A stretch of 38,165 nt of DNA, taken from NCBI GenBank assembly GCA_028874795.1, contig JAPPHT010000086.1, positions 1-38,165 of the forward strand, given 5' to 3'. The DNA comes from Chloroflexota bacterium (GTDB lineage Bacteria; Chloroflexota; Dehalococcoidia; Lucifugimonadales; Australimonadaceae). Below, one piece after another: positions 8,469 to 20,248 of this stretch. The number at the start of each line of letters is the position of its first letter. The stretch's first letter is position 1. A model generated the notes under the pieces. That model was not told where the DNA came from. It was given only the letters and a program-made list of their open reading frames with translations, and made no database searches. A program made the translations under genes and the position numbers.

Positions 8469-9839
8469 TCACGCGAGGCCCAGCTCCTTCTCCGTTGCCG
8501 TGAGCGAGCGCTCGAATATGTCCACCATGTCGTCGACCTCGTCCTCGGTGACGCAGAGCGGAGGCGCGAAGAAGACCTGGCGCGTGGCACGGGTGTAGAG
8601 CCCGCCGTCTATCAGACGCTCGTTGAGCGACTCGACCGCACCCGGCGTCTCGGACAGGAGCGTCCTGGCCTGCTTGTCGGAGACAAGTTCGACGGCGCAC
8701 ATGAGCCCGAGGCCCCGCACGTCGCCGACGGTGGGGTGCTCGCGCATCGCTTCGAGCCGGGCAAGGAGACGGTCGCCCATCCGCTCGGAGTTCCCGATGA
8801 GGTCCTCCCGCTCCATGATCCCGACGTTGGCGAGGCCCGCCGCCCCGCCCGCCGGGTGTCCGCCGTAGGTGATGCCGTGGCGGTAGGTCGTCTCAGGCCC
8901 TCCCTGGAACTCTTCGAAGACCGTGTCCCGCACGACGCAGGCGCCGACGGGGAAGTAGCCGCTGGTGATGCCCTTGGCCATCGTCATCATGTCCGGCACG
9001 ACGTTCCAGTGCTCGATGCCGAACCACCTGCCGGTACGTCCCCAGCCGGTGATGACCTCGTCCGCGATGAGGAGCACGCCGTGCCGGTCGCAGATGTCGC
9101 GCAGCATCGGCCAGTACTCGGGCGCTGGTATGGCGACGCCGGCGGAGAAGGAGACGGGCTCAGCGATGACGGCGGCGACGGTCTCCGGCCCTTCCTCCAG
9201 GATGATGTCCTCGACGGCCTGTGCGCACTGGATGCTGAACTCGGATGGAGAGAGCGATTCGTCCTCGCGGCGGTAGTAGGCAGGCTGCGGCGCGACGCGG
9301 AAGTTGTCCGGCAGGATCTCGTCGTAGGAGGGGCGGTCGAGGTAACCGGACGTGGAGACGCTGAGCGCTCCGCGCGTGGTGCCGTGGTAGGAGCCTTCGC
9401 GGCCGATGAACTTGCGCCTGCCGGGCTCGCCCCGGTTGTAGTGGTAGCGGTAGGCGACCTTCAGGGCGGTCTCGACGGCCTCGGACCCGCCGCTGGTGAA
9501 GTAGACGCGGTTGAGGTCGCCCGGCGTGTGCGAGGCGACCTTCGCGGCGAAGCGCGCGACCGGCTCCGAACCGTACTTGAACGTGTTGGCGTAGTGCAGC
9601 CTGCCCAGCTGCCCCGCGACGGCGTCCACGATCTCCTGCCGTCCGTGCCCGACGTTCACGAGCATCAGACCGGCCACGCCGTCGTAGCCCCACTTGCCGT
9701 CGGATGTCCTGATGCGGACGCCGTCAGCCTCGTCCATGAACGTGACGCCGTTCTCCGCGAGGTCGGCCCAGTCCTGGGTCGGCATCCAGAGGTGGTTGAG
9801 GGCGGCGTCCTGCAGTTCGTCGTGCGGGCTTGTGGTCAT
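8469..9839 (-). CDS. Class III (omega) aminotransferase
   Basis: A 456-residue PLP-dependent fold-type I transaminase, near the usual 430-460 for the family. The phosphate-binding loop TSGGSEAVETALK is at about 115-127, the ring-stacking region YHGTTRGALS at 151-160, the cofactor Asp is D260 in LLIADEVITGWGRTG, and the PLP lysine is K289 in MTMAKGITSGYFPVGA. This group moves amino groups between omega-amino acids, beta-amino acids or amines and pyruvate or 2-oxoglutarate. It starts 9 bases after the SDR stop codon, with an AGGAG ribosome site, so the two are co-translated. An alcohol or amine oxidised by the SDR could be the transaminase substrate or product. Specificity cannot be read directly. 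Confidence 0.93.
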   Translation of the reverse strand: MTTSPHDELQDAALNHLWMPTQDWADLAENGVTFMDEADGVRIRTSDGKWGYDGVAGLMLVNVGHGRQEIVDAVAGQLGRLHYANTFKYGSEPVARFAAKVASHTPGDLNRVYFTSGGSEAVETALKVAYRYHYNRGEPGRRKFIGREGSYHGTTRGALSVSTSGYLDRPSYDEILPDNFRVAPQPAYYRREDESLSPSEFSIQCAQAVEDIILEEGPETVAAVIAEPVSFSAGVAIPAPEYWPMLRDICDRHGVLLIADEVITGWGRTGRWFGIEHWNVVPDMMTMAKGITSGYFPVGACVVRDTVFEEFQGGPETTYRHGITYGGHPAGGAAGLANVGIMEREDLIGNSERMGDRLLARLEAMREHPTVGDVRGLGLMCAVELVSDKQARTLLSETPGAVESLNERLIDGGLYTRATRQVFFAPPLCVTEDEVDDMVDIFERSLTATEKELGLA

Positions 9840-9848
9840 TGCGTACTC

Positions 9849-10670
9849 CTATGGTCCCTGTTCCTCGGGAGGCCTTCCAAGCTGGGGCCAGGCGGCGGGC
9901 GCCGCCGCGACCTCCAGGCGCTGTTCGATGGGCAGGTTCTCGTCCCACTTCGAGGCGATGATGCGTCGTCCGTTGATGCCGTCAGCCTCGTCCGATGCGA
10001 GCCAGGCGATGGGCGCGCGCATGACGACCGGCTGGATGAGGGCGTCGCGGTCGCGCACGTCGACGTTCGAGATGAAGTTGGTGTTGGTTGCCCCGCCGGG
10101 GATGAGGACGTTCGCCGTGACGCCTGAACCTTCGAGCTGCTTGGCGATGATGGCGACGAACGACTCGTGCGCTGACTTGGACGGGCCATAGGGGAGGTTG
10201 CGGATCATCGTGTCGAGGCTCGTGGTCACGCCGACGATGCGTCCCCATCCCTGCTCGCGAAGGTGCCCGATGGCGGCGCGCGCCATGATGAACGGCCCGC
10301 TTGCGTTGACGCTGATCGTCTGGACCCACTCTTCCGGCGGCAGCTCCCAGAACCCGGCGAGGCGGCGGCTGGGTATGCCGGCGTTGTTGACGAGGACGTG
10401 CAGTCCGCCGAGGCCGGAGATCGTCTCGCTCACAGCGCGCTGCGCATCGTCCCAGCTGTGGACGCTGCCCACGATGGGGAGCGCGCTGCCGTCGCCGCCG
10501 ACCTCGCGGGCGTCGTTCACGTTGCGCTCCAGTTGCTCGGCGTTGATGTCCATGAGGGCAACGCGCGCTCCGGCTTCCGCTAGCGCGAGCGCCATCTCTC
10601 GCCCCATACCCATGGAGCTTCCCGCGCCGGTTATCAGCGCGACCTTGCCGTCCAGCGGCTTATCCGCCAT
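9849..10670 (-). CDS. Short-chain dehydrogenase/reductase (SDR)
   Basis: A 273-residue classical SDR. The Rossmann glycine motif is GAGSSMGMG (residues 16-24), and D41 at the end of the second strand favours NAD over NADP. NNAG lies at 95-98, the catalytic serine is S151 in GVTTSLDT, and the Y-x-x-x-K pair is Y161 and K165 in LPYGPSKSAHES. An AGGAGAAGG ribosome site precedes the ATG. It is separated by 106 bases from the CoA-transferase upstream and by 9 bases from the transaminase downstream. A role as a hydroxyacyl-CoA or alcohol dehydrogenase in the same degradation route is plausible but not shown. Confidence 0.92.
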   Translation of the reverse strand: MADKPLDGKVALITGAGSSMGMGREMALALAEAGARVALMDINAEQLERNVNDAREVGGDGSALPIVGSVHSWDDAQRAVSETISGLGGLHVLVNNAGIPSRRLAGFWELPPEEWVQTISVNASGPFIMARAAIGHLREQGWGRIVGVTTSLDTMIRNLPYGPSKSAHESFVAIIAKQLEGSGVTANVLIPGGATNTNFISNVDVRDRDALIQPVVMRAPIAWLASDEADGINGRRIIASKWDENLPIEQRLEVAAAPAAWPQLGRPPEEQGP

Positions 10671-10776: not shown

Positions 10777-12000
10777 CTACTCGAACACGCCCTCGTCCAA
10801 CAGCATGCGGTACTCGTCCTCGGGCATGCCGAGCAGTTCGCGCATGGCGTACTCGGTGTGCTCGCCGAGGAGCGGAGCGCGGCGGTATTCCGGCGTCGTC
10901 TCAGAGAGCTGGAAGCAGTTGGCGTCCGAGGCGTAGCGTCCCATCTCCGGGTGGTCCATGAAGACGAAGTGGCCGCGGTGCGTGTGCTGCGGGTCGTCGA
11001 AGAGGTCGCGGCAGTCGCGGACGGCGCCAGCGGGGACGCCGGCGGTCTGGCAGGCCTGCATCACCTCGTCCGGCGAGCGGGTGATCGTCCACGCCTCGAT
11101 GGCGGCGTCGAGCTCGCCCTCGCGCTGCTTGCGTCCGTCGAGGGTCGCGAGGCCGGGGTCGTCCGCGAGGTCCGCGCGGCCTATCGCCAGTGCGAGGGCG
11201 CGCCACTCGGTGTCGGTGGGGCAGGCGACGGCGCACCATCGGTCGTTGCCTTCGCAGCGGTAGACGGCGTGTGGGGCCATTTCGGGGTCGTGATTGCCGT
11301 TGCGCGTCTGGATGCGTCCGTTAGCGAGGTAGTCCATCACCGGCGGGCCGGCGAAGTAGAGCGCGGCTTCCAGCTGCGAGAGGTCCAGGTACTGGCCGTG
11401 GCCGGTGCGCCGCTTGTGGTCCAGCGCGGCGCAGACGGCGGCGAACGCGATGTGAGGGATGAGGAAGTCCGTGTACGCGCCGTAGGGGCTGACAGGGACG
11501 CGGTCCGGCCAGCCGGTGAAGTTGGTGTGTCCGGAGAGCGCGGTGAGGACGGGGCCGAAGCCGGGCTGAGAGTCGTAAGGGCCGCCGCGCCCGAGCATCG
11601 ATGCGCTGAACATGACGAGGCCGGGGTTGTGCTCGCGCAGCGCGTCGTAGCCGAGCCCCCACCGCTCCATCGTGCCCGGTGTGAAGTTCTCGGTGACGAC
11701 GTCTGCCCACTCGGTCGCGAGCCGGAACGCAAGGTGACGGGCGCGCTCGTCGCCCATGTTGAGGCCGAGGCCGAGCTTGCCGCTGTTGTAGTTGGCCCAG
11801 TAGCCGCTCCGGTTCGTCCCCGGCTTGCCCTCCGCGAACGGCAGGCCGTGGCGGATCACGTCGGGGCGCAACGAAGACTCGACGCGCAGCACCTCCGCCC
11901 CGAAGTCGCTGAAGTAGCGCGTCGTCATGGGGCCGATGACGACCCAGCAGAAGTCGAGGACGCGCAGCCCCTCGAACGGTTGGGCGAACGGCCGGGTCAT
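10777..12000 (-). CDS. Family III CoA-transferase (CaiB/BaiF), catalytic Asp present
   Basis: A 407-residue CoA-transferase of the CaiB/formyl-CoA transferase family, which moves CoA between carboxylic acids through an aspartyl-CoA thioester. The start is GLRVLDFCWVVIGP, and the nucleophile is D178 in SPYGAYTDFLIPH, 22 residues before the RRTGHGQY motif, as expected. Its ATG overlaps the stop of the second CoA-transferase by 4 bases (ATGA), so the two are translationally coupled. The partner has lost the nucleophile, which suggests a heteromeric enzyme with this protein as the active subunit, as described for benzylsuccinate CoA-transferase BbsEF. The acid activated is unknown. Confidence 0.9.
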   Translation of the reverse strand: MTRPFAQPFEGLRVLDFCWVVIGPMTTRYFSDFGAEVLRVESSLRPDVIRHGLPFAEGKPGTNRSGYWANYNSGKLGLGLNMGDERARHLAFRLATEWADVVTENFTPGTMERWGLGYDALREHNPGLVMFSASMLGRGGPYDSQPGFGPVLTALSGHTNFTGWPDRVPVSPYGAYTDFLIPHIAFAAVCAALDHKRRTGHGQYLDLSQLEAALYFAGPPVMDYLANGRIQTRNGNHDPEMAPHAVYRCEGNDRWCAVACPTDTEWRALALAIGRADLADDPGLATLDGRKQREGELDAAIEAWTITRSPDEVMQACQTAGVPAGAVRDCRDLFDDPQHTHRGHFVFMDHPEMGRYASDANCFQLSETTPEYRRAPLLGEHTEYAMRELLGMPEDEYRMLLDEGVFE

Positions 12001-13223
12001 AGCGCCGCTCCCGACGCGCGCAGGTCCGCTACCTCGTCCGGCGAGAAGCCGACGCCGGTCAGTACTTCTTCCGTGTGCTCACCGAGCCTCGGCGCCCGGC
12101 GGAGCTGCAACGGGCGCTCGCTGGACTTCACCCAGGGACCGAGAGTCGTCATCGTGCCGCCGTCGGGCGCCTCGGTCTCGCGGAAGAAGCCGCGCGCTGC
12201 GAGCTGGGGGTAAGAGCAGACGTCGGCGGGGTCGTTCACCGGGAAGAGGAGGACGCGCCGCCTGATCGCCTCCTCGGAGAGGTAGCGTTTCGTACGGGAG
12301 CGGAAGAACGCCTCCAGCGTCTCGCTCATCGCGTCGAGCACGTCGTCGGGCAGTTGGCCGAAACCGTATGCCCCGAAGTCGGTGTTGGTGAGGAGCGGGT
12401 GGCCTTCGCCGTGCTCGTCCATCCACTCGCAGAGAGCGGTCATGCCGCGCCCTCCGGTCGCGCCGCCGGGCTGGATGTAGTTGACGTAGCCGTCGGCGCA
12501 CTCGAAGTTCACGCGGAGGTTGCGCCCGTCGCCGATGGGGCGGAAGGGGCCTGAACGTTTGAGGATGATCTCGTTCATCTCCCAGAACTGCGGCGCGTGG
12601 GAGAGCGTGCGGGTGAGTGCCTGCTGGCACGAGACGTCGACGCGCTGGCCGCGCCCGGTGTTGAGCCGGTGCGCGTGCGCCGTCATCGCGCCCGCAGCGC
12701 CCGCGGCTCCCCCCAGCGTCCAGAACTGCGGCACGCTTACCCGCAGCGGCGGACGGTCCGGGTCGCCGGTGAGGTAGGCGAAGCCGCTGAGAGCGGAGCC
12801 GGTGAGGTCGGTCGCCGCGAAGTCGCGGTAGGGGCCGTCCTGTCCGAAGGGGGTGATCGAGACATAGATGAGCGCCGGGTTCAGCGCATGGATGTCGTCG
12901 TAGCCCAGACCGAGCCCGTCGAGATAGCCGGGGCGGAACGATTCGACGAGGAAGTCTGCCGAGGCGATCAGCCTGCGAAGGGCCTCGCGAGCGGCGTCCG
13001 ACTCGACGTCGAGCGCGGCGCTCTTCTTGTTGGCGGCGTAGAGCTGCCAGAAGAGGCTGCCTTCGATCCCGGGGCGGTCGTGGTGGAAGGGGCCGATGCG
13101 TCGGGCTGGATCGCCGGTAGGAGGCTCGATCTTGATCACCTCGGCGCCGAGGTCGGCGAGGACGCGTCCGCAGAAGATGCCGCGGTCGTCCGCGAGGTCT
13201 ATGACACGGTACGGGGAGAGCAT
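11997..13223 (-). CDS. Family III CoA-transferase homologue lacking the catalytic Asp
   Basis: A 408-residue CaiB/BaiF protein. The open frame continues well upstream, but family homology starts at MLSPYRVIDLADDRGIFCGR and the ATG at 13223 lies 2 bases after the preceding stop. The substrate-domain landmarks are present (ADFLVESFRPGYLDGLGLGY, SITPFGQDGPY, NTGRGQRVDVS). At the position of the nucleophilic Asp, counted back 22 residues from the TGRGQ glycine, there is W168 in VPQFWTLGG. On its own it should therefore not form the aspartyl-CoA intermediate. With the neighbouring, Asp-containing CoA-transferase overlapping by 4 bases, it is best read as a structural or substrate-binding subunit. 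Alternatively it could be a separately diverged binding protein. Confidence 0.88.
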   Translation of the reverse strand: MLSPYRVIDLADDRGIFCGRVLADLGAEVIKIEPPTGDPARRIGPFHHDRPGIEGSLFWQLYAANKKSAALDVESDAAREALRRLIASADFLVESFRPGYLDGLGLGYDDIHALNPALIYVSITPFGQDGPYRDFAATDLTGSALSGFAYLTGDPDRPPLRVSVPQFWTLGGAAGAAGAMTAHAHRLNTGRGQRVDVSCQQALTRTLSHAPQFWEMNEIILKRSGPFRPIGDGRNLRVNFECADGYVNYIQPGGATGGRGMTALCEWMDEHGEGHPLLTNTDFGAYGFGQLPDDVLDAMSETLEAFFRSRTKRYLSEEAIRRRVLLFPVNDPADVCSYPQLAARGFFRETEAPDGGTMTTLGPWVKSSERPLQLRRAPRLGEHTEEVLTGVGFSPDEVADLRASGAAL

Positions 13224-13225
13224 CG

Positions 13226-14353
13226 TCAGGACAGGCCCGGCTGGAGGCCGAGCGCATCGGCGACCCTGCGGCGGTGGTAGCGGGGGCTGCCGAGGTGGTG
13301 GTAGAGAGTGCGGGACATGCGCGTGTGGAGTGTGAGGCCGTATTCGCGGACGATGCCGACGCCCGCGTGTACGTCGTGCGCGGCGTTGCAGGCGAGGTAG
13401 TACCCCTCGCTTGCGAGTGCGGCGGCCATATGCACGCCACTCTCGGCGGGACGCCCGGTATCGAGCTTCCAGAGCACCTCGTAGGTCGTCCATCGCGCGG
13501 CGTCCAGGTGGTTGACGATGTCGATGATGTGGTCCTGCACGCGCTGGAAGCGTCCGATGGGCTGCTGGAACTGTCGCCGCGTGCGGCTGTACTCCAGGCA
13601 CATCTGGAAGACGCTCTCCAGTCCGCCGACCTGGTACGCGGAGAGGACGGCGGTAGCCTGCAGCATCGCGCGCTCGAACGCGTCCCAGGCGTCCGGACCG
13701 CCGCCGAGCAGCGCCTCGTCGCCCACCGTGACGCCGTCCAGCCGCACCTCGCCAAGGCCGGTCGACAGCCCGCGCAGCGTCCTGCACGCGACGCCGGGCG
13801 CATCCGCGGAGACGATGAACAGACCGACGTTCTCGCCGGCGGTACGCGCCGCGACGAGCAGGTGCGTCGCGTGCACGGCGTCGGGCACGTGGAGCTTCAC
13901 GCCGCTGAGTGTGTAGCCGCCGGACGTTCGCTCTGCTACGAGTTGCACGTCGCCGCGCTCCCAGCCGTACTCGGGCTCGGTCACGGCGACGGCGAAGACT
14001 TCGTCGCCGGTCACGATCCTGGGCAGGTGCGCGGCCTGCTGTTCGTCGTTGCCGCACTCCCGGAGGGCGAGCGTCGCGAAGACGCCGGAGGAGAAGTGTG
14101 GGCCGGGCACCGGACCCCTGCCGAGCTCCTCGAACACAACCCCTGCGTCGGAGAACGAGCCGCCAGCGCCGCCGTGCTCCTCCGGCACGAGGCTGCCGAG
14201 GAGGCCGGTCGACGCGAGCGCGGGCCACCCGTGGGATCCGTCCACGTCCCCCGCGTCGATGGCGACGAGCGTCTCTTTCGTGAAGTCGCGGCGCAGCAGG
14301 TCCTGGATGGTGGACTGCAGCATGCGCTGCTGTTCGTTCAGGAGCAGGTCCAT
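13226..14353 (-). CDS. Acyl-CoA dehydrogenase-like protein, second subunit type
   Basis: A 375-residue flavoprotein-fold protein. The start at 14353 (MDLLLNEQQRMLQSTIQDLL) sits 2 bases after the first acyl-CoA dehydrogenase stop. The open frame extends upstream, but that part overlaps the neighbour and has no family similarity. Landmarks are the N-terminal helical domain, VTEPEYGWERGD in the middle sheet region, QQPIGRFQRVQDHIIDI, and the C-terminal HAGVGIVREYGLTLHTR. That end lacks the Y-E-G-T catalytic Glu motif and matches the partner subunit of heteromeric dehydrogenases such as those of actinobacterial sterol side-chain degradation. It probably pairs with the gene just upstream to form an alpha-beta enzyme introducing a 2,3 double bond into an acyl-CoA. 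Confidence 0.88.
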   Translation of the reverse strand: MDLLLNEQQRMLQSTIQDLLRRDFTKETLVAIDAGDVDGSHGWPALASTGLLGSLVPEEHGGAGGSFSDAGVVFEELGRGPVPGPHFSSGVFATLALRECGNDEQQAAHLPRIVTGDEVFAVAVTEPEYGWERGDVQLVAERTSGGYTLSGVKLHVPDAVHATHLLVAARTAGENVGLFIVSADAPGVACRTLRGLSTGLGEVRLDGVTVGDEALLGGGPDAWDAFERAMLQATAVLSAYQVGGLESVFQMCLEYSRTRRQFQQPIGRFQRVQDHIIDIVNHLDAARWTTYEVLWKLDTGRPAESGVHMAAALASEGYYLACNAAHDVHAGVGIVREYGLTLHTRMSRTLYHHLGSPRYHRRRVADALGLQPGLS

Positions 14354-14355
14354 GA

Positions 14356-15591
14356 TTAGCGCAGTCTCCCCGGCTCCTCCCGCACCTCGCGCCCGATGCC
14401 GAGCCGCCGCGCGATGATGACGCGCTGGATCTCGGCAGTGCCGCCGGGGTGCTGGTCGACGATGGCGCCGCGCTGGTGCACCTCCACGTGGCCGCCGGCG
14501 ACCGCCCACTCGTCGGGCGCCTCGACGAGCGCCTGCGGGCCCATGACGTCCAGCACGGCGCGCGCCTTGGAGAGCTGGCCGCGCTTCTGGTAGAGGTAGG
14601 CTTGGGCGCCCTCGTAGGTGAGCTGCCTTCCCTGGCCGCGCCAGGCGTAGTTGCGGAAGTGCAGCAGCCGCGTCACCTCGGCGTCGATGTAGAAGTCGAC
14701 GAGCCGGTCGCGCACGTCCTGGTCCTCCAGGAGCGGCCTGCCGCCGCGCTTCGCGCTTCGCGCGTAGTCGAACACGCGCTCGGTGAGCGGGTCGTCGCGG
14801 ACGGCGCTCCGGAGCAGACCGTGCTCGATCTCCAGGTGCGTTCCCGCGACCTTCCAGCCGTTGCCCTCGCCGCCGACGAGGTTGAACGCGGGCACGCGCA
14901 CGTTGTCGAAGTAGACCGTGTTCTTGATGCCACTCGCGGCGCCGCGCTCGCCGCCTACGAAGAGGAGGTCCATCTGCTCGACCGTAATGCCGGGCAGGTC
15001 CATCGGCATCATCAGCCAGCCGAGGTTCTCATGGCGCGGGGCGTCCGGGTCGGTCACGGCGATCATCCAGGAGTACTCGGCGCCGTGGCTGCTGCCGACG
15101 AATATCTTGGTGCCGTTGACGACGTACTCGTCGCCGTCGCGGATGGCGGTGGTGCGGACGCTCGCGAGGTCGGAGCCGGACTCGGGCTCGGTGAGCAGCT
15201 GCCAGGTGCGTATCTCGCCGCGCAGGATCATGGGGAGGAAGTGCGCCTTCTGCTCCTCAGTGCCCCAGACGAGGATGGCGACCCCGCCGAGCTTGCCGCC
15301 GGTGTCATAGTAGGGCGGAAGCGGCATGTTGTAGCGGTCGAGCTCCTCCTCCAGCGCCATGGCGAGCTCCATGGAGAGCCCCCCGCCGCCGTACTCGGCA
15401 GGCATCGTGGGGTAGAGCCAGCCCTTCACTCCCAGCCTGCGCCCGAACTCGCGCTGGAGCTCATACTCCTCCCGGGTGAGGTCCGCGGGGTCGGGGTGGT
15501 CGGGGATGTCGGGAACGTTCTGCTCGATCCAGGCGCGCACCTCCTTGCGGAACGCGTCCTGCTCGGGCGTCCATTCGAGCTCGAAGTCCAT
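14356..15591 (-). CDS. Acyl-CoA dehydrogenase, first subunit type
   Basis: A 411-residue acyl-CoA dehydrogenase. It begins MDFELEWTPEQDAFRKEVRAW. The FAD/substrate sheet shows LLTEPESGSDLASVRTTA, and the C-terminal helix has GAIVDQHPGGTAEIQRVIIA. The P-G-G-T form replaces the Y-E-G-T catalytic Glu of the medium-chain enzyme, so the base must lie elsewhere, as in the isovaleryl and heteromeric FadE types. It is the first gene of a compact run (2-base gap, 2-base gap, 4-base overlap) with a second dehydrogenase and two CoA-transferases. No ribosome site is visible before the ATG, but TAACAT lies 9 bases upstream, so the mRNA may be leaderless. A bulky or branched acyl-CoA substrate is likely. 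Confidence 0.92.
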   Translation of the reverse strand: MDFELEWTPEQDAFRKEVRAWIEQNVPDIPDHPDPADLTREEYELQREFGRRLGVKGWLYPTMPAEYGGGGLSMELAMALEEELDRYNMPLPPYYDTGGKLGGVAILVWGTEEQKAHFLPMILRGEIRTWQLLTEPESGSDLASVRTTAIRDGDEYVVNGTKIFVGSSHGAEYSWMIAVTDPDAPRHENLGWLMMPMDLPGITVEQMDLLFVGGERGAASGIKNTVYFDNVRVPAFNLVGGEGNGWKVAGTHLEIEHGLLRSAVRDDPLTERVFDYARSAKRGGRPLLEDQDVRDRLVDFYIDAEVTRLLHFRNYAWRGQGRQLTYEGAQAYLYQKRGQLSKARAVLDVMGPQALVEAPDEWAVAGGHVEVHQRGAIVDQHPGGTAEIQRVIIARRLGIGREVREEPGRLR

Positions 15592-15634: not shown

Positions 15635-16012
15635 CTAGGCGGCGAGCGGTTCGATGGTTACAGGGCCGCCGTCGACCACGTCCATCGTAACGCGGCTGCC
15701 CGTGAGCAACCGCATCCCGATGAGCGGTTTGTCGCCCATCCCCAATATGGGAATCGTTTGCCGCTCCCCATGCCATACCACCGCAGTGCGGTAGATATCG
15801 TGTGTCTGCACGCTTCCATCAGCCAGGGTAATGCGTCCTTCACCCTCGCTGGTCAATCCGAACTGGCGAATCATCGGGTGCGGCAGCGCAAGGTATCCCG
15901 TGAACCCTGTGTCCAGCACAACAGTTACAGGCTGCTCGGTACGCGCCTTGTCCACGATGAGCATGCGGATCAGGGCTTCTCTCCCGCGCACCGTTCCACT
16001 ATTCATCGTCAT
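15635..16012 (-). CDS. Retropepsin-like (clan AA) aspartic protease
   Basis: A 125-residue single-domain protein with the aspartic protease motif VVLDTGFTGYLALP (Asp34-Thr-Gly), the form typical of bacterial clan AA proteases that must dimerise to build one active site. A second glycine-rich turn, IPILGMGDKPLIGMRLL, corresponds to the family's hydrophobic-G-x-x-hydrophobic motif. The start is uncertain between 16012 and 16006: an in-frame ATG pair, with GGAGG upstream of the first. Either start lies inside the end of the preceding 91-residue gene, so the two are coupled. The substrate is unknown. The DNA here is visibly less GC-rich than the flanking genes, consistent with acquisition as a module. 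Confidence 0.8.
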   Translation of the reverse strand: MTMNSGTVRGREALIRMLIVDKARTEQPVTVVLDTGFTGYLALPHPMIRQFGLTSEGEGRITLADGSVQTHDIYRTAVVWHGERQTIPILGMGDKPLIGMRLLTGSRVTMDVVDGGPVTIEPLAA

Positions 16013-16274
16013 CGGGGATGGCGCCTCCACCAGTGCTGTAGAGAGCTCTATAGCCAACGCGCTCAGCCCAGGTGCGCGCGCCGGGCCGTCGAGTCATGAG
16101 GGTCTCGAAAGCACGTGCGTCGTCATCGTCTATCTCGTAATCGCCGCTGTCCACATCAATGACGACGATCTTGCCCTTCATGGCGGGATAGACGAGCGGG
16201 CGTATCTTCTTTCGGTAGATGGCCTGCCCGCGAGCAGCCACGCTTCTGTGCGGAAGCGGCAGCCTGATGTTCAT
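15999..16274 (-). CDS. Small conserved-looking protein coupled to the aspartic protease
   Basis: A 91-residue hydrophilic protein with no assigned function. The start at 16274 is chosen because GGAGGA lies 5 bases upstream, although the frame is open to 16334. The central part reads GKIVVIDVDSGDYEID followed by a run of acidic residues, then RRPGARTWAERVGYRAL and an acidic tail IPDDDE. From memory, very similar short proteins with 'IDIETGDYEI' cores accompany clan AA proteases in cyanobacteria and Chloroflexota. That fits the overlap of 8-14 bases with the protease gene. It might be the protease's substrate, inhibitor or partner. No toxin or DNA-binding motif is evident. Confidence 0.7.
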   Translation of the reverse strand: MNIRLPLPHRSVAARGQAIYRKKIRPLVYPAMKGKIVVIDVDSGDYEIDDDDARAFETLMTRRPGARTWAERVGYRALYSTGGGAIPDDDE

Positions 16275-16409: not shown

Positions 16410-19400
16410 CTACAGCGTGACCTTCTTGTAGAGCTGCGGCAGGCGGCGCGGGAGTTCCATGATGTCTGGCAGCACCTCGTAGTTGAGGTCGCCGGTCATG
16501 GTGCGCAGGTAGTCGTGGCCGTTGCGGTCCACGGTCAAGCAGAAGGGCGTGATGTCCAGGTTGCGCGCCTCCATCAGGGCCATGCGCGTGTCCTGCACCG
16601 CGTACTCCTTCTCGACTCCCTCGCGTGAGTAGCCGCGGTCCTGCGGGCGGCCGTCGCTGATGACGAACATGAACTTGGTCTTGGCGTCCACGTTGGCGAG
16701 CTTGGTGGTGGCGTGGCGGATGGCCGGGCCCATGCGCGTGGCGTGGAGCGGCGCAACCTTGTCCATGCGGCGCTTCACTCGGTCGGAGAAGAGCTCCTCG
16801 ACCTCCTTGATGACGTAGAACTCGACGTTCTCGCGTCCGAAGCCGGAGAAGCCGTAGACGCCGTAGCGGTCGCCGATGGTCTCCAGCGCGTTCATCAGCA
16901 GCACCATCGACTCCTTCTCGACGTCGATGATGCGCTTGTACGGACGGCGCGCGGTCTCGCCCCTGCGGGCGCGGAGCCACGCCGTGTACGCAACCGGGTC
17001 TCCGGGTGCGTTCCAGTCGGAATCGCGTGAACTCTCTTCCACAGCCTCCGCCGTGGACGCGCTCATGTCCAGCAGGAAGACAACGGCGACGTCGCGCTCG
17101 TCCTTGTTGCGCCGCCAGTAGATGCGCTCGTCCGGCGTCATGTTGTTGCGCAGATCGATGAGCGCCTCGATGCCGGCGTCAAGGTCCACGTCCTCGCCTT
17201 CGGGCAGGCGCTTCACCTTGCGGTACATCTCCGGGCGGACGGACTCGAACTGCCGCTTGATCTGCTCGATGAGTCCGGCGTAGGCGTGCATCGTCTCGTT
17301 GTAGAAGGCGGTCTCGCCGGAGACGGCGATGCGTTCCTGCACGATGCACCAACGCGGACGGTAGTCGTTGGCGCGGAAGTCCCATTCGTCGTAGGCATAG
17401 GAGCGCGGTTCGAGTGCTTCGAGCGGGCCGCCTTCCTCGTCCACGTGAGGGATCTGGTTGTAGCCGGAGCCTGCGGGGTTCTGCGGGGCGTCCGCGCCCA
17501 TCTCCTTCATCATGTTGGCGGCGACGGTCGTCACCTCGGCGTCGTCCGCAAAGTCGATCTCCGTGGAGTCGCGCAACGCCTGCTCGAGTTCTGCCTGCGA
17601 TATGCCCTGAGCGCTCTCGGAGCCGTCATCGTCGCCGGGCTCTGCCTGTCCTCGCATCTGGGCCAGAAGCTGCACCATCTCCGGCTTGAAATCGCCGCGG
17701 TAGTCGACGTCGTCAGGCGACTCGTACTCGTCGCCCGGCGTCTCCTCCTCTGATTCCTCGGCCTCAGCGCGCAGCCGCGCCACGATCTCTTCCAGCGTGG
17801 GATCTTCGAACTCGGCGTTCGTGAGGTCCAGGACCTCCCAATCGTCCAGCGGAATGAACTCGTTGGGGACCTGGGAGAGGGTGTAGTACATGCGAAGGGC
17901 AGCCTCGGCGGAGTCCTCGGACGTCGCCTCGTGGTTGCGCACGCTGCGAAGGAGACCGGCGAGCTGCATCGCCTGCTCTGTGTAGCGCGACGGGACGTGA
18001 ACATCGGTCGTCTGCCCGAGACTGAGACGGACGAGGGTCTCCATGAGCGCCTGCTGGGCCGGCAGCATCTCGACGGGGCCGCGCGCGGCGAGCGCGTCGC
18101 TCTGCACCCGCCGGTAGCTGGGCGCGAGCCCGCGGTACTGGGAGGTGATGCGGTGGTCGATCCGCGCGCTCTCCGTGGTGGAGAAGAGGTCGGCCGCCAT
18201 CGCGCGCACCGGGAAGAGGTCGAAGAACGACGCGACCTCCGTCGTGCCCGGCGTGGCGCCGAGACCCTCGGCGACGCCCTCGCGGTAATCGTTGAACCCC
18301 GCCGAAGGGGCGTGGAAGTCGAAGTCGAAGCTCTTGAACTCCAGGTGCCCGACCTGATGCGTGGTGACGACCTTGAGCCAGGCGAAGTTCTCACTCTTCG
18401 ACTCGTGCAGGTCAACGTTGGGGGGCAGGAAGACGCTCTTGCCGTCGGTCGTTGCGAACTCGACGGAGACCCAGCCGATGTTGCGGTGGGTGATGTCGTT
18501 CGCCTCCTGCAGTTCGACTTCCGAGCCTGCGAGGGCGTTCGCATACATGCGGAGCAGTCCGTGCACCTTCTCGAGTTCGATGCTGGACGAGAGCTGGTCC
18601 AACAGCGCCTCGGCACGCGCGGACTCGAGCCGGAAGTAGGCGATGCCGGCGTCGGGGTTGTCGTGCAGGAACTCGAGGCCGCGTCCGAACCACGTGTCCA
18701 GTTGCGCGGGGCTGATGCGGTCCAGCACGCTTGGAGCGGTGCGCAGGAAGGCGCTGACGGCCTCGGCGGAGGAGTCCGCGAGGTCTTCCGCGCGCTCCAG
18801 CACCATCGTCTGCAACTCCTGCGGGAGCTGTCCGAGCGAGTGCGCACTCTCCACCATGAACGCGGAGACGTTGCCCAGCCCCTGGCGGGCGAGCCGCTCG
18901 CTGAGGGCGAAGTAGCGCGGACGCAGGCGGCGGTCGACGCTGTTGCCGACCCGCGTCGCCGCCTCGAAGGAGCCGCGGACCTCGCGCCAACTCGTCTCGG
19001 CCAGCACCTTCGCGAGCGATATGAGCTCCTCACGCTCGCTGACCGCGGGCAGGACGCGCTGGCCGAGCACCAGCGCCTCTGCGGCGAGGTCGTAGGAGCG
19101 GCTTGCGAGTGTTTGCACGAGCGAAACGAAGAGCTGCAGCTCGTGGAAGTTCACCTGCTGCACGAGGTCGTCGCTCACGTCGAAGAACCGCGCCGCGAGA
19201 CTGGACGACTTCCATGTGCCCCGCGACAGGCCGCGCCCGAGCGAAGCCCATCCGCTGATGTGCCGGGGAGCGAGGGTAGGGAGGACGCGCGGGCTGGCGC
19301 GGAAGAACGAGGCGGCGATGACGGGCGCTTCCGCAGTGAGCTCCATGCCGCTCTCCGCCCACCGCTCGAACTGGGTGAACCCGATGGTCTGCACGACCTG

Positions 19401-19604
19401 GGGCGATGCCTTGAAGTACTCCGTGGCGGCCTCCCACGCGCGGGGGCCCTGGGCGGCGATGCGGACGCCCTGCTGCGCCCATCGCAGCGCGGGGACCGGG
19501 CCGAGCGCTTCGGTCACCTCGTCGCGGACCGCCTCGTAGGCGGCGATCACCGCGGAGGGGTGCTTCTTCAGCTCCTCGATGACGCTGTCGTGTTCAGTCG
19601 TCAC
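16410..19604 (-). CDS. VWA-domain protein of the CbbO/NorD type
   Basis: A 1064-residue protein with a large helical N-terminal region and a C-terminal von Willebrand A domain. The GTG at 19604 is chosen because it overlaps the Nudix stop in a GTGA junction and has AAGGAG 6 bases upstream. The metal-ion-dependent adhesion site is complete: D-M-S-A-S at about residue 845, a Thr in HATRMGPAIRH, and the Asp in FVISDGRPQD. A long acidic stretch (about residues 620-660) separates the two parts. CbbO and NorD proteins act with a CbbQ/NorQ AAA+ ring to remodel a bound target, such as inhibited RuBisCO or nitric oxide reductase. The cognate ATPase is encoded two genes upstream. The target is not encoded here. 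At over 1000 residues it is longer than typical CbbO/NorD proteins. Confidence 0.87.
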   Translation of the reverse strand: MTTEHDSVIEELKKHPSAVIAAYEAVRDEVTEALGPVPALRWAQQGVRIAAQGPRAWEAATEYFKASPQVVQTIGFTQFERWAESGMELTAEAPVIAASFFRASPRVLPTLAPRHISGWASLGRGLSRGTWKSSSLAARFFDVSDDLVQQVNFHELQLFVSLVQTLASRSYDLAAEALVLGQRVLPAVSEREELISLAKVLAETSWREVRGSFEAATRVGNSVDRRLRPRYFALSERLARQGLGNVSAFMVESAHSLGQLPQELQTMVLERAEDLADSSAEAVSAFLRTAPSVLDRISPAQLDTWFGRGLEFLHDNPDAGIAYFRLESARAEALLDQLSSSIELEKVHGLLRMYANALAGSEVELQEANDITHRNIGWVSVEFATTDGKSVFLPPNVDLHESKSENFAWLKVVTTHQVGHLEFKSFDFDFHAPSAGFNDYREGVAEGLGATPGTTEVASFFDLFPVRAMAADLFSTTESARIDHRITSQYRGLAPSYRRVQSDALAARGPVEMLPAQQALMETLVRLSLGQTTDVHVPSRYTEQAMQLAGLLRSVRNHEATSEDSAEAALRMYYTLSQVPNEFIPLDDWEVLDLTNAEFEDPTLEEIVARLRAEAEESEEETPGDEYESPDDVDYRGDFKPEMVQLLAQMRGQAEPGDDDGSESAQGISQAELEQALRDSTEIDFADDAEVTTVAANMMKEMGADAPQNPAGSGYNQIPHVDEEGGPLEALEPRSYAYDEWDFRANDYRPRWCIVQERIAVSGETAFYNETMHAYAGLIEQIKRQFESVRPEMYRKVKRLPEGEDVDLDAGIEALIDLRNNMTPDERIYWRRNKDERDVAVVFLLDMSASTAEAVEESSRDSDWNAPGDPVAYTAWLRARRGETARRPYKRIIDVEKESMVLLMNALETIGDRYGVYGFSGFGRENVEFYVIKEVEELFSDRVKRRMDKVAPLHATRMGPAIRHATTKLANVDAKTKFMFVISDGRPQDRGYSREGVEKEYAVQDTRMALMEARNLDITPFCLTVDRNGHDYLRTMTGDLNYEVLPDIMELPRRLPQLYKKVTL

Positions 19605-20248
19605 GCGGTCTCCTTGTCCCGCCCCTCGTTGCCGGGGCGCAGGCTTCGCAGCAGGTCCAGCAACTGGGCGAGTATCCACGCCGTCGCGCCGAACACGAGA
19701 TACGGACCGTGAGCGTACGCCTTGCGTTGCAGCAGGCTGCCGTCGGCCTGCAATCTCGCCTCGTGTCGTTCCGCAGCCTCATTCAGCAGGTGGTCGAGCG
19801 GTATCTCGACGATCTCCGCCACCTCGTTCTCGTCGACCTCGAACCGGTACGGATGCGGGATGGTCCCCACCATCGGCCAGACGAGGTAGTCCGTTCGAGT
19901 AAGGACAGGTTCCAGCGCGCCGAGCACATCCACGTCCCCGGGAGCGATGCCCATCTCTTCGTGCGCCTCGCGCAGAGCGCAGGCCAGCATGTCCGGGTCG
20001 GTCGGCTCGTACTTTCCGCCCGGGAAGGCGATCTCGCCCTGGTGCAGGCCAACGAACTGCGAGCGCACGTTGAGGATGACGTGCCATGCACCGTCGTGGT
20101 AGTGCAGCGGTATGAGGACGGCGGCAGGCCGCGCCGCTTCCGCTTTGGGCGGAGCGGACGGCTTGCGCGAGGCGAGCACCGCGCGCAGCGCCTCGATGCG
20201 GGAGGCTGCTTCCGCCGGTATCGGCGTTGTCTGCAAGGTGGCCGCCAT
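19601..20248 (-). CDS. Nudix hydrolase, CoA-pyrophosphatase type
   Basis: A 215-residue Nudix protein. The box reads FPGGKYEPTDPDML followed by ALREAHEEMGI, ending at about residue 101. As in CoA pyrophosphatases, the canonical Glu spacing is altered to a D-containing form while R-E-x-x-E-E-x-G is intact. Such enzymes cleave CoA or acyl-CoA to 3',5'-ADP and a phosphopantetheine. The ATG directly abuts the stop of the AAA+ gene, and its own stop overlaps the VWA gene's GTG by 4 bases, so it is locked between the two motor subunits. With coaE at the head of the same cluster, the unit has two CoA-related genes. Family confident, substrate inferred. Confidence 0.88.
   Translation of the reverse strand: MAATLQTTPIPAEAASRIEALRAVLASRKPSAPPKAEAARPAAVLIPLHYHDGAWHVILNVRSQFVGLHQGEIAFPGGKYEPTDPDMLACALREAHEEMGIAPGDVDVLGALEPVLTRTDYLVWPMVGTIPHPYRFEVDENEVAEIVEIPLDHLLNEAAERHEARLQADGSLLQRKAYAHGPYLVFGATAWILAQLLDLLRSLRPGNEGRDKETA

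Follow-up and report, generated by a model that had tools for sequence, protein, structure and literature searches.

Described relatives and layout of the locus

Among described enzymes, the closest to the pair considered here is BbsEF of anaerobic toluene breakdown, which consists of two homologous family III CoA-transferase subunits and whose active-site asymmetry is already known, being visible in the solved structure. Entries in the PDB are titled for BbsEF itself and for a D178-CoA adduct of BbsEF (9FOL); residue 178 is the aspartate of BbsF (chain B) by counting in the printed alignment, and it is from the entry title and this residue counting that we place the adduct on BbsF. Aromatoleum aromaticum EbN1 is reported to use a succinyl-CoA-dependent transferase to activate phthalate, with a UbiD-like decarboxylase acting next (PMC13040137). 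A plasmid search located a related gene pair on plasmid 2 of EbN1 (EBN1_RS22145/22140) beside UbiX, UbiD and TRAP transporter genes, and from the strain named in that study and the gene neighbours we infer that it encodes the succinyl-CoA:phthalate CoA-transferase. SAR202-type Chloroflexota have an unusually large number of family III CoA-transferases (PMC5395668), most of them without a specific name. What the present analysis adds is that the BbsE-like subunit (E) appears to represent an old and widespread lineage of inactive subunits, in which fusion to the BbsF-like partner (F) is common, and that the operon described below joins two enzymes, both of which include a homologous subunit that is apparently inactive.

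The window, by which we mean the whole stretch of 38,165 nucleotides analysed, carries six tightly packed minus-strand genes running from 15591 to 8469 in the order large acyl-CoA dehydrogenase, small acyl-CoA dehydrogenase, E, F, short-chain dehydrogenase/reductase (SDR) and aminotransferase. E (11997..13223, 408 residues) is the E-type subunit, has Trp168 at the nucleophile position and is predicted to be non-catalytic, while F (10777..12000, 407 residues) is the F-type subunit and is predicted to be catalytic through its nucleophile Asp178. Both match PF02515 (CoA_transf_3) over their full length (Pfam; 277 bits for E and 345 bits for F, cut-off 23.3); with NCBIfam, E, F and six fused relatives all scored below the cut-off of every model. 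E starts two bases past the stop of the upstream, small acyl-CoA dehydrogenase, and the E and F genes share an ATGA stop-start overlap at 11997..12000. The preliminary description had reported two overlapping family III CoA-transferases here, and the reading frames, the family assignment and the 4-base overlap were all found to be correct. Scans for promoters and terminators gave no signal above that of shuffled sequence.

The two genes downstream of F, which we regard as accessory, encode the SDR (9849..10670, minus strand, 273 residues), whose best solved relative is a (3R)-hydroxyacyl-CoA dehydrogenase and which has BbsD among its best matches, and a class III aminotransferase (8469..9839, minus strand, 456 residues) nearest to putrescine, polyamine and omega-amino transaminases. 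The SDR gene lies beside the E-F pair in most, not all, close relatives, and both genes are absent next to the pair in L056 and L059. Upstream of the operon on the same strand, 15635-16057 encodes a 140-residue protein that has no Pfam match but whose DTG motif hints at an aspartic protease of the retropepsin-like kind, and 16410-19679 encodes a 1089-residue protein with a weak VWA match.

The nucleophile position in E and F

In a MAFFT alignment, W168 of E and D178 of F share a column with D169 of E. coli Frc, the aspartates of SUGCT and BbsF, and the tyrosine of BbsE, so that the tryptophan of the window E stands where BbsE also has a non-acidic residue. The preliminary description had set a Trp168 in the first protein against a retained D178 in the second, and both residues do lie at the Frc D169 column. 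A check for an acidic residue at the nucleophile position of E found none aligned with W168, and E has no acidic residue within 11 positions of it. Since the segment from the RPP/RVP to the GRGQ/GHGQ motifs is free of gaps between the window E and F, the placement of W168 and D178 in this column is secure. Furthermore, since all nine other members read from the same family of genomes also have tryptophan at this column, Trp168 is not a sequencing slip or base error.

When three sequence sets were pooled, between which a few genomes may recur, aspartate was absent from the nucleophile column in 67 of 70 E-type sequences and present in all 67 F-type sequences and all 84 other family III sequences, a distribution that chance would not produce. 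In the first set none of 37 E-type sequences had aspartate, which was present in all 34 F-type sequences and 13 others; in the second it was missing from 26 of 29 E-type sequences and present in 28/28 F-type sequences and 69/69 others; and in the third four E-type sequences lacked it and five F-type sequences and two others had it. The residues found at this position in E-type sequences are Trp, Tyr, Pro, Ala, Met, Ser, Cys, His, Phe, Leu, Gly and Glu. Loss of the aspartate is not special to the window genome but an old trait of the E-type lineage as a whole, tryptophan being one of many replacements.

A quick tree put the three E-type sequences that keep the aspartate (from L113, L118 and L142) close to the base of the E side. 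We therefore infer that the duplication giving rise to E and F preceded the loss of the aspartate, which perhaps took place more than once. These aspartate-bearing E sequences belong to E-F pairs (L113:8986-11440, L118:25-2441 and L142:7526-10209), are possible relics predating the loss, and may offer a view of the origin of the inactive subunit.

In Mct, the catalytic Asp165 is part of the final helix in the Rossmann fold (PMC9813914). The corresponding aspartate that characterises family III is D178 in F, and is thus present in the pair, whereas E alone has W168. In the structure predicted for E alone (pLDDT 87.2, pTM 0.84), W168 lies near the start of a helix spanning residues 166-189, and the weakest part of the model is the loop immediately before it. 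The best fold match of the E model was BbsE (Z 40.9, 2.9 Å over 397 residues). A natural E-F fusion of 815 residues (L115) was predicted with a pLDDT of 92.9 and a pTM of 0.94, and its F half superposed on BbsF at 1.3 Å over 403 residues. A Gly-rich insertion, PGGATGGRG, is found at residues 252-260 of E in the window's family (12444-12470 in the window) and is absent from BbsE and from F. It was considered as the counterpart of the Frc gating loop, in a division of labour between the subunits, and was rejected because the Frc loop aligns elsewhere and BbsE does not have the insertion.

Descent and pairing of the two subunits

The preliminary description had likened the pair to heteromeric enzymes such as BbsEF in which only one subunit carries the aspartate, and this likeness is upheld by the fold match, by the title of the D178-CoA adduct entry, by subunit-specific best matches and by the trees. 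Of the solved structures, E matches BbsE best (1e-73, against 1e-31 for BbsF) and F matches BbsF best (1e-80, against 1e-26 for BbsE), with alpha-methylacyl-CoA racemases matching either protein far more weakly. In an IQ-TREE analysis of 84 sequences, 37 E-type sequences including BbsE split off with support of 100/99 and 34 F-type sequences including BbsF formed a clade with 100/99, leaving SUGCT, a formyl-CoA transferase and other paralogues outside both. On these sequence relationships, the resemblance to BbsEF is rightly called homology and not mere analogy: both systems appear to have two homologous family III subunits of the same fold with a D178 nucleophile in F only. They differ in that the window E, at about 37% identity, falls in a separate subclade, in a genome with no PFL-like gene, and in that BbsEF is partnered by a single BbsG, whereas the window pair is linked to a two-subunit acyl-CoA dehydrogenase. 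The EbN1 pair likewise shares the E-F order, the 4-base overlap and the distribution of residues (Y152 in E, D177 in F), and is 39% (E) and 40% (F) identical to the window pair, but adjoins UbiX/UbiD and forms a separate clade. In both the E and F trees the window pair lies outside the UbiD-linked clade of EbN1 and the BbsEF clade.

Another adjacent pair of family III genes within the same phylum is SmtA/SmtB of Chloroflexus, the succinyl-CoA:malate CoA-transferase of the 3-hydroxypropionate bicycle; we presume that the genes compared here are these, from their position next to Mct. Unlike the window pair, SmtA and SmtB both have the aspartate and neither belongs to the E or the F clade; an SmtAB-like reading of the window pair was rejected on these grounds.

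A strong E match was present in 19 of 301 genomes drawn across the phylum and in 11 of the 16 genomes of the window's family. The question of whether the two genes stay linked in relatives has a clear answer, as E and F are neighbouring or fused in 61 of 64 E-type stretches: a full-length F lies on the same stretch in 60, and L104, in which F is split into two hits, adds one. The three stretches with no visible F partner are L065, L074 and L081. A contig scan with a general search pattern covers the matches listed and is not a census of such pairs. Natural E-F fusions are common and occur in several lineages, with E first wherever the order was read, as in the operon. Two are found in the window's own genome (G000 contig 81, L086:2050-4476, and contig 39, L087:6901-9324), where Met and His occupy the nucleophile column of the respective E halves and the F half has the aspartate. 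The distance matrices of E and F were correlated at r = 0.84, a value matched in none of 2000 permutations (0.78 after removal of close relatives), and the same subclades were recovered in separate E and F trees. Taken with the conservation of E over several phyla, the pairing, fusions and mirrored trees argue for a shared complex of E and F.

We therefore consider it very likely, judging from sequence, that E and F together form one heteromeric family III CoA-transferase of the type of BbsEF and the succinyl-CoA:phthalate transferase. If instead they were separate enzymes or homodimers sharing an operon, with E either decaying or in a non-covalent role such as that of a racemase or isomerase, a complete E fold (pLDDT 87.2) would be understandable, as would the many different residues at the E site, which are expected of a position freed from catalysis. 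This is nevertheless improbable given the pairing, fusion, mirrored trees and breadth of E conservation just described, and the weakness of the racemase matches next to those of BbsE and BbsF. Equally improbable in our estimation is a CoA-transferase that additionally acts, for instance, as a lyase, in the way proposed for the DMSP enzyme DddD. DddD is a two-domain fusion, and E-F fusions with the aspartate only in the C-terminal half are widespread. SAR202 CoA-transferases have also been reported to hit best to DddD, there termed a transferase/lyase (PMC5395668), but the window proteins lie outside the long-branch fusion group L151/L154/L170, and linkage to acyl-CoA dehydrogenases suits oxidation of an acyl-CoA better than its cleavage.

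The homology to BbsEF and to the pair of the EbN1 phthalate cluster, at about 40% identity, might suggest that the window encodes a benzylsuccinate or phthalate CoA-transferase proper, acting in a toluene or phthalate pathway. Searching the window's genome, which is 97% complete, gave no match to a glycyl radical enzyme of the benzylsuccinate synthase type (PFL-like, PF02901), and a toluene route in which benzylsuccinate is made in the cell is therefore unlikely. The operon neighbours are dehydrogenases, the SDR and the aminotransferase, with no UbiD or UbiX among them, and the pair belongs to neither the BbsEF group nor the UbiD-linked group, which leaves this identity even less probable than the two above. 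For the heteromeric transferase that we favour, the practical consequence is that some of the CoA-transferases in these genomes would be halves of one enzyme and would need to be counted and expressed accordingly, since E alone would look inactive. The signature of an E without aspartate adjacent or fused to an F with aspartate provides a simple rule for finding such enzymes.

Proposed reaction, the dehydrogenase pair and other contexts

We propose that E and F would interlock in the manner of family III dimers. Asp178 of F would attack the donor acyl-CoA, probably succinyl-CoA, giving first an acyl-aspartyl anhydride and from it an aspartyl-CoA thioester, from which CoA would be handed to the acceptor acid. 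E would supply the other half of the interlocked dimer, with Trp168 filling its vestigial site, and the acyl-CoA product would next serve as substrate for the adjacent pair of acyl-CoA dehydrogenases. The homology of the transferase to BbsEF and to the phthalate enzyme points to succinyl-CoA as the probable donor; for the acceptor, our best guess by analogy is a bulky acid or one with two carboxyl groups.

The dehydrogenase genes encode a large-subunit type protein (PimC/Tcur3483/ChsE4-like; 14356..15591, minus strand, 411 residues) and a small-subunit type protein (PimD/Tcur3481/ChsE5-like; 13226..14359, minus strand, 377 residues as translated, its start codon being placed only to within the first three codons). 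In the PDB, each best matches a different subunit of Tcur3481/Tcur3483 and of 4X28. Glu256 of the large subunit aligns with the glutamate of the Tcur3483 NHER motif in all six members compared; we take it to be the catalytic base, at the position known from isovaleryl-CoA dehydrogenase-type enzymes. The small subunits have Ala or Ser at this column (Ala in the window), and the C-terminal site has no glutamate in either subunit. ChsE4-ChsE5 has been described as an alpha2beta2 heterotetramer (PMC6678751), and the window dehydrogenases probably also form a heterotetramer, in which one type of subunit would be catalytic (Glu256) and the other not. The tandem of large and small genes with the glutamate aligned in one of them is shared with ChsE4-ChsE5 (4X28), Tcur3481-Tcur3483 (6WY8/6WY9) and PimC/PimD; against the curated PimC/PimD cut-offs of 624/653 bits, however, the window pair scores only 154/155, and unlike those systems as compared it is joined with a CoA-transferase.

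The preliminary description had suggested a dedicated route for activation and oxidation of an acid, and the conserved linkage of the E-F pair to the dehydrogenase pair lends support to such a route. Of the 11 family genomes with E, 9 also have the large dehydrogenase, which occurs in no family genome without E and lies directly upstream of E-F in all eight readable cases (the window and L053-L059), the contigs of G304 being too short to read its position. The dehydrogenases were not found in G308 and G312, family genomes with E-F that are both only about 75% complete. A fuller reading, plausible to us if a little short of probable, is that the window encodes a two-step module in which both enzymes combine an active with an inactive homologous subunit, acting on an undescribed acid, perhaps bulky or with two carboxyl groups, in Chloroflexota without toluene or phthalate routes. 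Elsewhere in the window's genome (G000 contig 61, L088:7733-12781) there are two tandem family III CoA-transferases, both with aspartate and neither of E or F type, followed in the same operon by paralogues of the window large and small dehydrogenases (42% and 48% identity). The dehydrogenase pair thus goes with two different kinds of transferase pair.

E-F pairs recur beside the genes of different pathways, so that neighbouring genes can hint at substrates. They are found beside UbiD decarboxylases in L062, L063 and L102, and beside enoyl-CoA hydratase, thiolase or SDR genes in L104, L116, L185 and L186. A fused E-F in a Dehalococcoidia bin (L108:307-12275) lies among genes for a RACo-type corrinoid activator, URO-D-type methyltransferases and a pterin-binding methyltransferase, a setting in which CoA activation may be linked to demethylation. 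With neighbours as varied as these, the E-F scaffold appears to serve several pathways. On plasmids of Rhodococcus opacus (L186:4932-10057) and Variovorax (L185:3948-9739), F-type or E-F genes lie by Zn-ribbon, thiolase, SDR or MaoC genes, neighbourhoods that resemble a bbs-like beta-oxidation set in aerobic bacteria.
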